64,000 nucleotides of DNA, from assembly GCF_008705135.1 (NCBI RefSeq), contig NZ_CP023694.1:3410001-3474000 (forward strand), in the 5' to 3' direction. Origin of the DNA: Streptomyces coeruleorubidus. GTDB taxonomy: Bacteria; Actinomycetota; Actinomycetes; Streptomycetales; Streptomycetaceae. The stretch's first letter is position 1; every line of letters starts with the position of its first letter. Position numbers and translations under genes: made by a program. The notes beneath the pieces are model-generated. The model had not been told where the DNA came from, ran no database searches, and saw only the letters and a list, made by a program, of their open reading frames with translations. Below are positions 39,681 to 53,128 of the stretch, piece after piece.

Positions 39681-41888
39681 TCAGCCCGGGGCTCCGACCT
39701 TGTCCCTGGCCGGTTCCGGGGCTCCGGCCGGTTCCTGGTCCGCCTCGCTCAGGCCGAAGCGTTCGTGGAAGCGGCGCAGGGGGCCCGGGGCCCACCACGT
39801 GGCGCGGCCGGTGAGGCGCATGACCGCCGGGACCAGGAGGCTGCGGACGATCATGGCGTCCATCAGGACCGCCAGGGCGATGCCCAGGCCGAGCATCTTG
39901 GTGTTGGTGACCCGGGACGTGCCGATCGCGACCATGACCACGGCCAGGATGACCGCCGCCGCCGTGATCAGCCCGCCGGTGCGCTGGAGTCCGTGGCGGA
40001 CGGCCTGGTCGTGGTCGCCGGTGTGGTCGTACTCCTCCTTGATGCGGGAGAGCAGGAACACGCCGTAGTCCATGGACAGGCCGAAGGCCACGCAGAACAT
40101 CAGGACCGGGAGGGTCGTCTCGATGGAGCCGGGGCTGGTGAAGCCGAGCAGGCCGGAGAGATGGGCGTCCTGGAAGATCCAGACGACCGCGCCGAACATG
40201 GCCGTCAGACTGAGCGCGTTGAGCACGACCGCCTGGACCGGTATCAGCACGCTGCCCGTGAGGAGGAAGACCAGGAGCAGGGTGACGATCGTGATGAAGA
40301 CGGCCGCGAGCGGCAGGCGTTCCCCTATGGCGTCCTTGGAGTCGACCAGGACGGCCGCCGTGCCGGTCACCTTGGTGTCGAAGGGGGCCCGGACCTCGCG
40401 CAGGTCGCCGACGAGGCGCTGGGCCGGGTCGTCGACCGCCTCGCCCTTCGGCAGCACCGTGAAGTACGCCGAGTCGCCCTTCACCAGTGGCCCGTCGACC
40501 CGCAGCACTTCGGGCAGTCCGGCGATCCGCTCCTTGTAGGCGCCGTACTGCGCCTCGGTCGCGCGGCCCTCGGCGAGCACTTCGAGGCCGCCGCCGGGGC
40601 TGCCCGGGAAGCCCTCCCGGATGTGCTGCTGCACGACGTGGGACTCGGACGTCGAGGGCAGCTGGCGGTCGTCGGCGGTGCCGAACTTCACGCCCAGGAA
40701 GGGCAGTCCGAGCAGGACGAGGACGGCTGTGGTCCCCAGGGCGAAGAACGGGGCGCGGCGCATGACGAGCGACGCCGTGCGCGCCCAGGTCCTGCCCTCT
40801 TCCTCGGCGGGCTTCGGTCGGTGTCCGCGCCGGAACACGCGGCGCAGGTCCCAGGAGTTGACCCGGTGCCCGAGCAGCATCAGCGCGGCCGGGAGCAGGA
40901 TCAGCGCGGCCGCCGCGGCCAGCAGGACGACGGCGATCCCGGCGTAGGCGAAGGACCTCAGGAAGTACTGCGGGAAGACCAGCATCGCCGCCAGGGACAC
41001 CGCGACCGTGAGGGCGGAGAACAGCACGGTGCGGCCTGCGGTGCGCAGCGTCGTGCCGATGGCGGTCAGGGGCTCGGCGCCGGTGGACAACTCCTCTCGG
41101 AAGCGGCGGACGATGAACAGCGCGTAGTCGACGGCGAGACCGAGGCCGAGGGCCGTGGTGAGGTTGATCGCGAACACGGACACGTCGGTGAGCTCGGTGA
41201 GGCCGCGCAGGATCGCGTTCGTCCCGAGGATGGCGACGATGCCGATGCCGAGCGGCAGCAGGGCCGCGACGGCGCTGCCGAAGACCATCACCAGCAGCAC
41301 GAGCGTCACCGGCAGGGCGATGAGCTCGGCCCGGGTCAGGTCCTCCTGGATGATCGTCTGCATCTCGTGCCGCACGGCGACCGGGCCGCCGACGGTGACC
41401 TCCACCGGGCCGTGCGCCCCGCGGTAGTGGGGCGCGATGCGCTCCAGGGTCTCGCCGGCGGTCTTCTCATCGCCCGTGATGCGCGCGGCTATCAGCGCCT
41501 CGCGGCCGTCCTCGGCGCGCAGGGCCGGGGTGCCGGACTGCCAGTAGGAGCCGACGCCGGTGACGCCCTTCTCGTTCGCCAGTCGCTCGGCGAGACGCTC
41601 GGCCCGGGCGGCGACCGCCGGGTCGTCGACCGAGGCGTCGCCCGCGTCGACCAGGAGCAGCAGGTTGGGCTGGGAGCCGGGGAACTCGCGCTCCAGTGCC
41701 TTGGTCGCGTACGTGGACTCGGCGGCCGGGTCCTCCCAGCCGCCTGCGCCGAGGCGGTCGGCGACGCCGCTGCCGGCCAGCACCGCGAGGGCGGTGAGGA
41801 CCAGCGCCACCAGCAGCGACAGCCTGGGCCGGGCCGTGACGAAGCGGGTCCAGGCTCCGACGCGTGGTGGTGTGTTGACTTCGGTCAT
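39681..41888 (-). CDS. MMPL/RND-family membrane transporter
   Basis: This 735-residue transporter has about twelve helices in two repeats, each after a large extracytoplasmic loop. Family motifs include [20 protein letters not shown] in the first half and [20 protein letters not shown] in the second, with the Asp-Tyr pair thought to carry proton flow. MMPL proteins export lipids, glycolipids or drugs. It is divergently transcribed from a tetR gene across a spacer with a large inverted repeat, so drug- or lipid-inducible control by that repressor is likely. AAGGGGA precedes ATG 41888. Confidence 0.9.
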
Positions 41889-50245: not shown

Positions 50246-50848
50246 GTGATCAAGAACAACAGCCCGGTGAGTGCACGGACCGGGCGGACGAGCCGCACGC
50301 GGTTCGTCCTGGCCCTGGCACCCCTGCTCCTGGGTGCCTCCGCCCTGCTGGCCGGAAGCGCCGCGGGGGCCGTCTCAGTGGCGTTCGCGGGGGAGGTGCC
50401 GGTAACGGTCCACGTGGCTCGGGTGACCGGGTCGGGTGTCTCGGCCTCTCCGGGCGCCTCCGGGCGTGGCGGGCTGCTGCCGGCGCTGGCCACGCGAGTG
50501 GAGCAGGCCACCGTGCGGGACGCCTGCGTGACCTCCACCGCCCAGCTGCCGGTCGTCGGCGCCGTGACGGCCGTCGTGCGGATCGAGCGTGCGTCGGCCA
50601 CCGGGTTGACCGTGGAGACGGGCAAGACCACCGCCGGGTCGGTGAAGCTGTCCGGGGCCAGGTTCAGCACCCCGCAGAGGTCCCTGGACCGGCCCACGGG
50701 CCTGTTCACCGTCGGCGCGCAGAAGGTCAGCGGCAGCGGGGTGACCACGCGGCCGCATGCCTTCACGGCCGGGACGATCACCTCCGAGGGTGTCGCCATC
50801 GAGTTGCGCCGGGGCAAGGGCGGCTGCACGCCGGGAGCGACCCCATGA
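50246..50848 (+). CDS. DUF6230-like exported membrane-associated protein
   Basis: This protein of about 200 residues has an N-terminal hydrophobic signal/anchor (TRFVLALAPLLLGASALLAG) and a beta-rich outer domain (AVSVAFAGEVPVTVHVARVT, two Cys in VRDACVTSTAQLP and GGCTPG). The pattern matches the streptomycete DUF6230 family, often mislabelled cholesterol esterase. DUF6230 genes occur next to DUF6114 membrane proteins, as here, where the next ATG overlaps this stop. The function is unknown. Start uncertain: GTG 50246 has a poor ribosome site, and the frame is open further upstream. Confidence 0.75.
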   Translation: MIKNNSPVSARTGRTSRTRFVLALAPLLLGASALLAGSAAGAVSVAFAGEVPVTVHVARVTGSGVSASPGASGRGGLLPALATRVEQATVRDACVTSTAQLPVVGAVTAVVRIERASATGLTVETGKTTAGSVKLSGARFSTPQRSLDRPTGLFTVGAQKVSGSGVTTRPHAFTAGTITSEGVAIELRRGKGGCTPGATP

Positions 50849-51225
50849 CGATCGCGATCCGACCTGCCGGGTGGCCCGCGTGGCGTCAGAGCCGCCCGTT
50901 CGCGGCGGGCCTGCTGCTCGCCCTCGGCGGGCTGGAGTTGATCTGCGTCTCCTGGGTGGGGCTGGGGTTCCTGCGGTTCACCGGCACCGCGGGCGCGGCG
51001 TCGTGGACCCTGGGCGCCCTGTTCGTCGTCGCCGGTGTGACGACGTGGCGCAACCCGGCCCTGCGCTACTTCTCCGGCGTCCTGGCCGCCGTACTGTCCC
51101 TGGTCAGCCTGGTGGCCGCCAACCTCGGCGGACTGCTCCTCGGCTTCCTGCTCACCGCCGTCGGCAGCGCCCTGGCCCTGGCCTGGATCCCCCAGCAGGC
51201 GCCTTCAGCCCGAGAGGAGGCGTGA
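50845..51225 (+). CDS. DUF6114-like four-helix membrane protein
   Basis: This 126-residue integral membrane protein has about four hydrophobic helices (FAAGLLLALGGLELICVSWV; SWTLGALFVVAGVTTW; YFSGVLAAVLSLVSLVAANL; LLGFLLTAVGSALALAWIP). It matches the DUF6114 membrane partner of DUF6230 proteins. It overlaps the DUF6230 stop by four bases and is followed after one base by the prenyl-enzyme fusion, whose ribosome site lies within its last codons. The tight triad suggests a complex acting on lipids or isoprenoids in the membrane; this is inference from context. Confidence 0.78.
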   Translation: MTIAIRPAGWPAWRQSRPFAAGLLLALGGLELICVSWVGLGFLRFTGTAGAASWTLGALFVVAGVTTWRNPALRYFSGVLAAVLSLVSLVAANLGGLLLGFLLTAVGSALALAWIPQQAPSAREEA

Positions 51226-51226
51226 G

Positions 51227-53128
51227 ATGAGGCCTTCCCCCCTGCACCCCGCCCGGGTCTACCGGCGCAGCGGCATCCACGACCCGGTCCTGCGTCGCGG
51301 CTACGAGGCATGCCGCCGCGCCACCCGCGCCAGGGGCGAGATCGAGTACGCCGTCTCGCTGCTGCTGCCGCCGCCGCTGCGGATCGCAACCTGGGCGTTG
51401 TACGGCGCCGGGGTGACGGTGGACTGTCTGGCGGACACAGCGGGTGTAGCGGACATGACGGAGCCGCCGGACATGAAGGACGCCGGACGCGCCGAGCGGC
51501 TGGAGGCGTGGATCGCGGCATTCGACGCCGACCTGCGCGACGGCCGCAGCACCGACCCGGTACGGCAGGCGTTGATCCACACCATGCTCACGTGGAACCT
51601 GCCGCCGGGATTCATGCACACCCAGTTCGAGCAGCTGCGCCTCGACGTCCACGGGCGCCGGTTCGCCACCTGGCAGGAGTGGCGACGCTACAACAGCCTG
51701 GTCACCACCCCGTTCGTGCTGCGCGCGGCCTCGCTGATGATGCGAGTCGCCGGCCTGTCGGCCGAACCCGAGGCGATCGCCTCAGGCGTACCGGACGCGG
51801 CGGTGGCGTGGCAGCTGGCCGTCGACGCCCTCGTCCTCACCGACGCCCTCATGGACCTCTCCGAAGACCTGGCCGACGGCCATGTGCCGCTGCCGCAGGA
51901 GGCCCTGGACGAGGCCGGCGTGCGCCGCGCGGACCTGCTGGAGCGGCGCAGCACCCCGGCCTTCGAGGAGCTGGTGCGCCGCCTGGCCGACCAGGCCGGT
52001 GGCTGGCTGGACCGGACACCGGTGCCCCCCGTGCTGCACCCCGCGGTCGGCATCGCGCTCGGCGCCTACACCGAGCTGTACCGGCTGCGCCTGGGGGCCG
52101 CCGCTGACGACCCGGCCGCGCTGCTGCACCGCCGCCCGGCCCTGCCGGCAGGCGCCCGGCTGCGCGTGCTGCTGCCCGCCCGGGCGCGGGCCGCGATGGC
52201 CTGGGCGCTTTTCCCGTTCCCCGTACGGCCCTGCCCGCCGCCGGAACCGGCCTGTCCGCCCGCAGGGCTCGCCGGGACCGCCGAAGTGCGCTCGCCCGCG
52301 GCCGAAGCGCTCTCCCCGGCCACAGAGCGGCGACCGGTCGTCCCCCCGGCACCGCACCCGTCCGGCGCCCGCCCGCCCGGGCTGCCCGCCGGTGCCCTGC
52401 CGCGCCACGTCGCGATCGTGATGGACGGCAACGGCCGCTGGGCCACCGCCCAGGGCCTGCCGCGCAGCGAGGGCCATCGGGCGGGCGCCGACGCACTGGT
52501 CGACGTCGTCCACGGCGCCCTGGAGATCGGCCTGAAGTACCTGACCGTGTACGCGTTCTCCACCGAGAACTGGAAACGCCCGGCTGACGAACTGCAGGCG
52601 CTGATGCACGAGATCCCCCGGCAGCTGAACCGGATCACGGACGGCGCCGAGCCGCTGGACGTCCGCGTGCGCTGGGCCGGACTGCGCTCCCGCCTGCCGG
52701 CCGACGTCATCGAAGCACTCGCCGACGCGGAGCAGGTCACCCGCGACCGCACCGGGCTCACCCTGACCGTGTGCCTCAACTACGGCGGCCGGGCCGAGAT
52801 CACGGCAGCCGCGGCACACCTCGCTCAAGAGGCGGTCGCCGGGCGCATCGACCCCGCCTCGGTCTCCGAGCACGCCTTCGCCCGCCACCTGCACGTCCCC
52901 GAACTGCCCGACGTCGACCTGCTGCTGCGCACCGGAGGCGACCAGCGCACTTCCAACTTCCTGCCCTGGCAGGCGACTTACGCCGAGCTGTTGTTCCTCG
53001 ACACCCCGTGGCCGGAGGTGGACCGCCGCGACCTGTGGCACGCGATCGAGCAGTACGCCCGCCGGACGCGCCGCTACGGCTCCATCCCCCGCATCCCCGC
53101 CCAGGCGCGGCCCGCGGACAGGGCATGA
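51227..53128 (+). CDS. Fusion: squalene/phytoene-synthase-like domain plus cis-prenyltransferase (UppS-like)
   Basis: This 633-residue protein has two isoprenoid domains. Residues about 1-330 resemble the squalene/phytoene synthase fold: GEIEYAVSLLLPPPLRIATW, LYGAGVTVDCLADT (D66-x3-D70, in the place of DDxxD), and a second motif MDLSEDLADGHVPLP (D210-x3-D214), matching the family's RDxxED..G..YLP. After a Pro-rich linker (335-390) lies a complete cis-prenyltransferase (391-633): IVMDGNGRWA (catalytic Asp400), EGHRAGAD, AFSTENWKRP and RTGGDQRTSNFLPWQATYAE. The second half should extend allylic diphosphates by cis addition; the first may condense or cyclise the product head-to-head or as a terpene cyclase. 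GAGGAGG precedes ATG 51227. Fusions of these two families are not known to me. Confidence 0.85.
   Translation: MRPSPLHPARVYRRSGIHDPVLRRGYEACRRATRARGEIEYAVSLLLPPPLRIATWALYGAGVTVDCLADTAGVADMTEPPDMKDAGRAERLEAWIAAFDADLRDGRSTDPVRQALIHTMLTWNLPPGFMHTQFEQLRLDVHGRRFATWQEWRRYNSLVTTPFVLRAASLMMRVAGLSAEPEAIASGVPDAAVAWQLAVDALVLTDALMDLSEDLADGHVPLPQEALDEAGVRRADLLERRSTPAFEELVRRLADQAGGWLDRTPVPPVLHPAVGIALGAYTELYRLRLGAAADDPAALLHRRPALPAGARLRVLLPARARAAMAWALFPFPVRPCPPPEPACPPAGLAGTAEVRSPAAEALSPATERRPVVPPAPHPSGARPPGLPAGALPRHVAIVMDGNGRWATAQGLPRSEGHRAGADALVDVVHGALEIGLKYLTVYAFSTENWKRPADELQALMHEIPRQLNRITDGAEPLDVRVRWAGLRSRLPADVIEALADAEQVTRDRTGLTLTVCLNYGGRAEITAAAAHLAQEAVAGRIDPASVSEHAFARHLHVPELPDVDLLLRTGGDQRTSNFLPWQATYAELLFLDTPWPEVDRRDLWHAIEQYARRTRRYGSIPRIPAQARPADRA

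Follow-up and report, generated by a model that had tools for sequence, protein, structure and literature searches.

Enzymes of the squalene/phytoene synthase (SQS/PSY) fold are best known for head-to-head coupling, the carbazole prenyltransferases being a recent exception. CqsB4 and NzsG act on carbazole acceptors (PMC7466098). Here we describe a gene in which a domain related to these enzymes is joined to a cis-prenyltransferase (cis-PT). It lies in a 64,000-nucleotide stretch of DNA from Streptomyces coeruleorubidus, which is called the window below; the source genome is a single contig of 9.34 Mb. Both parts of the protein belong to known families, whereas no description of their combination, of the altered motif or of the operon emerged from the open-access literature that was searched: judged by titles and abstract openings, and with the subscription literature mostly outside the search, no paper describing an SQS/PSY-cis-PT fusion was found there.

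The preliminary description of this DNA had placed a PF00494-like domain and a UppS domain in one reading frame, and this was borne out, as the protein scored above the curated cut-offs of both PF00494 and PF01255 (Table 1). The acidic motifs D66/D70 and D210/D214 were also found at the positions given there. The linker between the domains was less conserved than either of them in all 11 comparisons of the window protein with its siblings, and the predicted model of the full-length protein was poor (pLDDT 69).

Table 1. Features of the fusion gene and its operon, numbered from the first letter of the window.
Feature	Position	Strand	Remarks
DUF6230 protein, hydrophobic N-terminus	50246..50848	+	Pfam PF19741 1.8e-9; GTG start inferred
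DUF6114 protein, hydrophobic	50845..51225	+	Pfam PF19609 4e-27; stop 1 nt before the fusion ATG
Likely ribosome-binding site GAGAGGAGG of the fusion gene	51212..51220	+	Read from the sequence, inferred
Fusion gene: SQS/PSY-like domain, Pro-rich linker, cis-prenyltransferase	51227..53128	+	Open over 633 codons, ATG 51227 to TGA 53126-53128; product 633 aa
SQS_PSY (PF00494) domain, residues 40-307	51344..52147	+	Pfam E 4e-27, 96 bits vs cut-off 26
First Asp motif D66-C67-L-A-D70 (DxxxD)	51422..51436	+	D66 and D70 invariant across the family
Second motif D206-ALM-D210-LSE-D214, canonical form NxxRDxxED	51842..51868	+	From alignment columns
Proline-rich linker, about residues 334-389	52226..52393	+	Low confidence in the full-length model, pLDDT <50 at 334-370
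Cis-prenyltransferase (PF01255) domain, residues 398-618	52418..53080	+	Pfam E 3e-73, 246.5 bits vs cut-off 27

Far from being an isolated oddity, the fusion belongs to a family that is widespread in Streptomyces. Both domains were in-frame in 18 of the 22 loci of a first set (the window, the second own copy, a carotenoid control and 19 others) and shared one frame in 55 of the 63 loci of a second set, which implies that their fusion goes beyond chance. After the removal of 7 duplicates, 66 distinct in-frame fusion loci were left, nearly all from Streptomyces; 62 of these were complete (63 in which both domains were well covered, minus L060, which lacks everything before the position corresponding to residue 76). 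Fused copies from the second set also came from Embleya (L078) and Saccharothrix (L099). When the N-domain of the window was used as a query, family N-domains (at least 113 bits) were detected in 20 of 150 Streptomyces genomes, the next distinct gene scoring 91 bits. Family-level scores of 430-464 bits among 396 genomes of the phylum were confined to Streptomyces (4 matches in 3 genomes), the best of the remaining matches reaching 149 bits. The search of plasmids revealed no record covering 80% of the fusion protein in one place, the best, from Embleya, covering 79%. An N-truncated relative (WP_150157802.1, L060) is encoded on a Streptomyces tendae plasmid, and its NCBI name is only 'polyprenyl diphosphate synthase'.

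The loci without an in-frame fusion were those at contig ends (L043 and its duplicate L064, L092, L109 and L124), those with split frames (L049, L104 and L113), and L122 (no cis-PT match), L121 (distant PSY), L062 (unfused pair) and L061 (carotenoid control); L121, a MAG, has only a PSY with the canonical motif. Broken, shifted or cut frames were seen in L047 (8823-10911, cut in the N-domain), L049 (9309-11124), L104 (9764-11792), L060 (8558-10180) and at the cis-PT ends of L088 and L089; the damaged copies could represent either assembly errors or pseudogenes. The source genome itself has four PF00494 places, namely an adjacent pair at 8.07 Mb, which by its inferred names looks like hpnC/hpnD, the window fusion and a second fusion, placed by this search at C1:3095779-3097434. 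The latter (L009 9660-11456, C1:3095659-3097455) is of type B and is located downstream of CtaG-like and DUF2243 genes.

The AlphaFold2 model of the N-domain, calculated from a 60-sequence alignment, had a pLDDT of 90.6 and a pTM of 0.88, and its best Foldseek matches were LvqB4, a CrtM-like enzyme and CqsB4. When this model was compared by VIA-align, Z was 28.4 for both the CrtM-like enzyme (rmsd 2.5, 273 aligned) and LvqB4 (rmsd 3.1, 297 aligned, 27% identity), 23.9 for HpnC and 18.6-21.2 for the eukaryotic squalene synthases listed; the SQS/PSY enzymes thus spanned 18.6-28.4, as against 14.1 for the first class I terpene synthase. A profile built from 16 N-domains matched HpnC (7e-28), LvqB4 (5e-27), CqsB4 (2.5e-20) and the CrtM-like enzyme (3e-20) in the PDB, and human squalene synthase (1ezf) weakly (0.002). 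The NCBIfam models of HpnD and HpnC matched the window protein with 80 and 57 bits, far under their respective cut-offs of 279 and 250. The predicted fold of the N-domain is that of squalene/phytoene synthases, in agreement with the prenyl-synthase assignment made earlier, and together with the Pfam score it places the domain in the PF00494 superfamily.

The second motif is altered in the family. We compared 70 family N-domains (77 rows, from which L047, L060, L113 and L124 were dropped as short or broken, and 3 more as non-family) with 40 other PSY rows, a set that includes the near-duplicates L033/L062, L036/L061 and L001/L002, in which L002 is HpnD again and from which the own HpnC of the source genome is absent. 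According to the alignment columns, D66, D70, D206, D210 and D214 were invariant in the 70 family N-domains, and D66 and D70 also in all 40 other rows. However, the canonical Asn206 was changed to Asp in all 70, whereas it was retained in 37 of the 40 others; Arg209 occurred in 1 family N-domain as opposed to 37 of the other rows; and Arg63, situated before the first motif, was present in 17 and gone in 53 family members, whereas 38 of the 40 others kept it. The window protein has Asp at 206, Met at 209 and Val at 63, and the motif of the head-to-head SQS, PSY and HpnD enzymes (NxxRDxxED with an Arg before DxxxD) was not found in it. HpnC is also without Arg209 of the second motif, and in the source genome's own HpnC positions 206 and 209 are occupied by Glu and Gln. 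The replacement of the canonical Asn and Arg had been overlooked in the preliminary description, which had instead pointed to a Cys in place of the second Asp of DDxxD. Cys67 is indeed present, but the family motif is DxxxD and position 67 varied across the 70 N-domains (Asp in 64, Cys in the window and L063, Ala in 2, Asn in 1 and Gly in 1). Thus, Cys67 is not diagnostic, and we rejected it as a special feature. The stretch AGVTVDCLAD is common to the window and L063 (Streptomyces swartbergensis), whereas AVRAVDDLAD is found there in 13 of the remaining 15 type A rows.

The C-terminal domain carries the motifs MDGNGRW, FSTENWKRP and RTGGDQRTSNFLPWQ...YAEL, which together with its Pfam score place it among the PF01255 cis-prenyltransferases. 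Eleven motif residues, which we take to be the catalytic residues of cis-prenyltransferases (D400, N402, R404, H417, N448, W449, R451, R568, R574, S576 and E587), were invariant in 17 of 17 aligned fusions, in line with the UppS assignment made earlier. Its closest solved relatives are a (2Z,6E)-FPP-specific polyprenyl diphosphate synthase (7cpn/7cpm, presumably from Thermobifida), the likeness to which extends to the PHPSGARPP leader of 7cpm/7cpn, and a decaprenyl diphosphate synthase (2vg2/6ime, presumably from M. tuberculosis); unlike the fused domains, both stand outside the fused cis-PT group in the tree. Judged by kinship to the (2Z,6E)-FPP-specific enzymes, the primer could perhaps be of the Z,E-FPP type.

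A branch of the N-domain tree (69 rows) separated the 29 family N-domains from all others (100/100), and the same was true of the 25 fused-family domains in the cis-PT tree (60 rows; 100/99). Since the fused copies of either domain cluster together in this way, a single fusion event followed by co-divergence is likely, and this is the simplest reading of the trees. The cis-PT tree was calculated without O_L051, which is ill-aligned, and O_L035, and the fusion label then needs one change, as compared with two in an earlier tree containing O_L051; the 'fusion' groups of the trees take in L043 (contig end), L122 (truncated) and L104 and L113 (split frames). The fused cis-PT group adjoins the unfused cis-PT of L062 (85/60), followed by the group holding 7cpm, 2vg2 and the source genome's own unfused enzyme (L005). 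In the N-domain tree L038 and L040 adjoin the fusion clade on long branches, joined at 93/45, and their placement is unsure. Type A (the window, L045, L046 and L076) and the bulk of type B were separate in both trees, and L048 and L078 grouped with type A by the N-domain (85/42) and with type B by the cis-PT (100/99). The pairwise dN/dS values between the window and 11 siblings were 0.26-0.47 for the N-domain and 0.27-0.41 for the C-domain. The N-domain values of the window lineage (0.36-0.47 in 8 comparisons and 0.26-0.32 in 3) were below 0.5 yet mildly raised against the 0.23 and 0.32 of two sibling pairs, and since Arg63 is lost as well, the window copy may be diverging or degenerating.

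The window fusion is the last gene of a tightly packed DUF6230-DUF6114-fusion operon, in which the first two genes overlap by ATGA; a scan for promoters and terminators found nothing. A gene for an MMPL-family transporter is located about 8 kb upstream of DUF6230 (window 39681-41888), with no sign of membership in the fusion operon. The source genome contains three adjacent DUF6230-DUF6114 pairs (window 50246-51225, C1:6401567-6402657 and 7288486-7289315), one DUF6230 match having an internal stop.

Across 74 distinct loci, which are related to one another so that the counts are not independent, 55 carried a membrane-protein match in the same orientation as the N-domain match and no more than 500 nt upstream of it (22 ABC-2 permease, 18 DUF6114, 11 BrkB/YihY and 4 CtaG-like), 2 had a P450 in this position, and 17 had none of these five types; the DUF6230-DUF6114 pair stood directly upstream of the fusion in 18 of the loci. 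Of the permease representatives scanned with Pfam, L054 scored above and L107 below the ABC-2 cut-off. A P450 gene upstream accompanied by a divergent GMC gene was observed in 8 of the 74 loci (L044, L067-L070 and L072-L074), and L077 and L100 had a P450 match within 6 kb without GMC; in L068 (Streptomyces natalensis) the gene order is GMC-P450-DUF6230-DUF6114-fusion. Among the models, albaflavenone monooxygenase and pentalenene oxygenase came nearest to the P450 representative (L067), and cholesterol oxidase to the GMC representative (L070), but as these matches were far under the model cut-offs, we call the genes only terpene-oxygenase-like and cholesterol-oxidase-like. Neither a P450 nor a GMC gene was found at the window locus; the best matches in the source genome are elsewhere and are 36% and 43-46% identical, respectively.

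Several loci showed other arrangements. In L052 (7584-10934) the gene caller joined an FAD-oxidoreductase-like stretch (weak matches), the PSY and the cis-PT into one frame of about 1116 aa, with an MMPL transporter gene directly behind it. The operon of L038 (1-3369) consists of an ABC ATPase (identified by eye), an ABC-2 permease-like gene (below the cut-off), a PSY-like gene with Asp206 and Cys for Arg209, and a trans-polyprenyl synthase gene, i.e., it has the layout of type B but with a trans enzyme. The unfused operon of L062 (5736-10933) comprises a cis-PT, a PSY (by BLAST) with the canonical motif, an MMPL gene and a trans-polyprenyl synthase gene.

On balance, we lean towards the fusion being a bifunctional enzyme that carries out two coupled steps, first making a cis-prenyl diphosphate and then turning it into a terpenoid. 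In the first step the C-terminal domain would elongate an allylic diphosphate with IPP in the cis configuration, the primer being perhaps of the Z,E-FPP type, and release a Z-prenyl diphosphate. The N-domain, with a Mg2+ cluster presumably held by D66/D70 and D206/D210/D214, would then ionise this Z-prenyl diphosphate, or a co-supplied prenyl diphosphate, and a diphosphate-free terpenoid would be formed in a non-classical step such as cyclisation or water capture, instead of by classic head-to-head condensation. The hydrophobic product could be handled or exported by the membrane protein encoded just upstream and, in some relatives, subsequently oxidised by the P450 and the cholesterol-oxidase-like enzyme. 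This picture of the substrates, the order of steps, the product and the roles of the membrane proteins was assembled from the domains, the predicted fold, the conserved motifs, the tree groupings and the operon context. The joining of a cis-chain builder to a relative of squalene synthase, and the retention of the joined gene in many bacteria, suggest that the fusion probably makes a terpene-like lipid; the product is most likely a membrane-associated terpenoid. The preliminary description had predicted a single enzyme that builds a cis-prenyl chain and then condenses or cyclises it. The make-then-use part of this prediction is supported by the conserved fusion, the single groupings in the trees and the P450, GMC and exporter neighbours of relatives, and the parallel operons of L038 and L062, which combine a PSY or PSY-like gene with genes for chain-building synthases, also speak for it, whereas the condensation of two chains fits poorly with the replaced motif residues and with nearest structures that include carbazole prenyltransferases.

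In a different use of the chain, the N-domain would hand the cis-prenyl group to an independent small-molecule acceptor, in the manner of CqsB4 and LvqB4. Both rank near the top of the solved structures in the profile and fold comparisons, and they share Asp206 with the fusion family and are without Arg63 and Arg209. However, the N-domain tree places the carbazole enzymes apart from the fusion clade, and no aromatic-scaffold genes were seen in the recurrent neighbour clusters (weak evidence, with representatives scanned for 16 of 45 clusters), and we regard such acceptor-directed prenylation as rather unlikely. If the N-domain instead joined two prenyl diphosphates 1'-1, a cis hydrocarbon resembling squalene or phytoene would result. 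PF00494 membership, the fold match to CrtM, HpnC and SQS, the FAD-oxidoreductase-like stretch of L052 and an FAD monooxygenase beside L059, which scored above the cut-off of the PF08491 squalene epoxidase family (61 vs 20 bits), are all consistent with this, but the Asn and Arg of NxxRDxxED are replaced in 70 and 69 of the 70 family N-domains, respectively, and Arg63 in 53. Classic head-to-head condensation by the fusion family is therefore doubtful and in our view improbable, although the argument is not decisive, HpnC also being without Arg209.

YisP acts as a phosphatase. Its match to the N-domain (fold Z 22.2, sequence profile 2.7e-8) raises the idea that the cis-prenyl diphosphate is hydrolysed to a free polyprenol, a product that would suit a membrane-protein partner; this match is weaker than those to LvqB4 or the CrtM-like enzyme, and we think hydrolysis very improbable. 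The NCBI name of the N-truncated relative and the damage in at least L060, L047 and, via a shifted frame, other genes might suggest that the N-domain has no catalytic role and that the protein is one more polyprenyl-diphosphate synthase serving the cell-wall carrier lipid; this is hardly credible given five metal-motif Asp residues invariant in 70 of 70 and N-domain dN/dS values below 0.5. The preferred reading remains the coupled formation and conversion of a cis-prenyl diphosphate. The existence of a conserved clade that has lost the usual coupling motif and gained a cis-chain builder suggests that the SQS/PSY fold has additional chemistry and that many Streptomyces have a further terpenoid, and the compact P450-DUF6230-DUF6114-fusion operons make the product directly testable.

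Compared with known systems, the fusion N-domain resembles LvqB4 and CqsB4 (7vws, 7vwt) in its SQS/PSY fold, Asp206, DxxxD, D210/D214 and the absence of Arg63 and Arg209. These enzymes differ in their carbazole acceptors and in having no cis-PT domain in the matched chains, and membership of the fusion family in the carbazole clade was rejected, since LvqB4 and CqsB4 are outside the 100/100 fusion clade. With HpnC/HpnD, CrtB, CrtM and the squalene synthases it shares PF00494, the fold and both Asp pairs, but the 40 other PSY rows mostly keep Asn206, Arg209 and Arg63. In the fungal prenyltransferase-terpene cyclase chimeras a trans-prenyltransferase and a class I cyclase are present on one polypeptide. 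We tentatively suggest that the fusion family could be a bacterial cis counterpart of these chimeras, in which an SQS-fold domain with an altered metal motif would convert the Z-prenyl diphosphate and so give rise to a new class of exported cis-prenyl terpenoids in many Streptomyces. As in the fungal chimeras, a chain builder and a chain user occupy one polypeptide, whereas in the Streptomyces fusion these are a cis-PT and an SQS-fold domain instead of a trans-PT and a class I cyclase.
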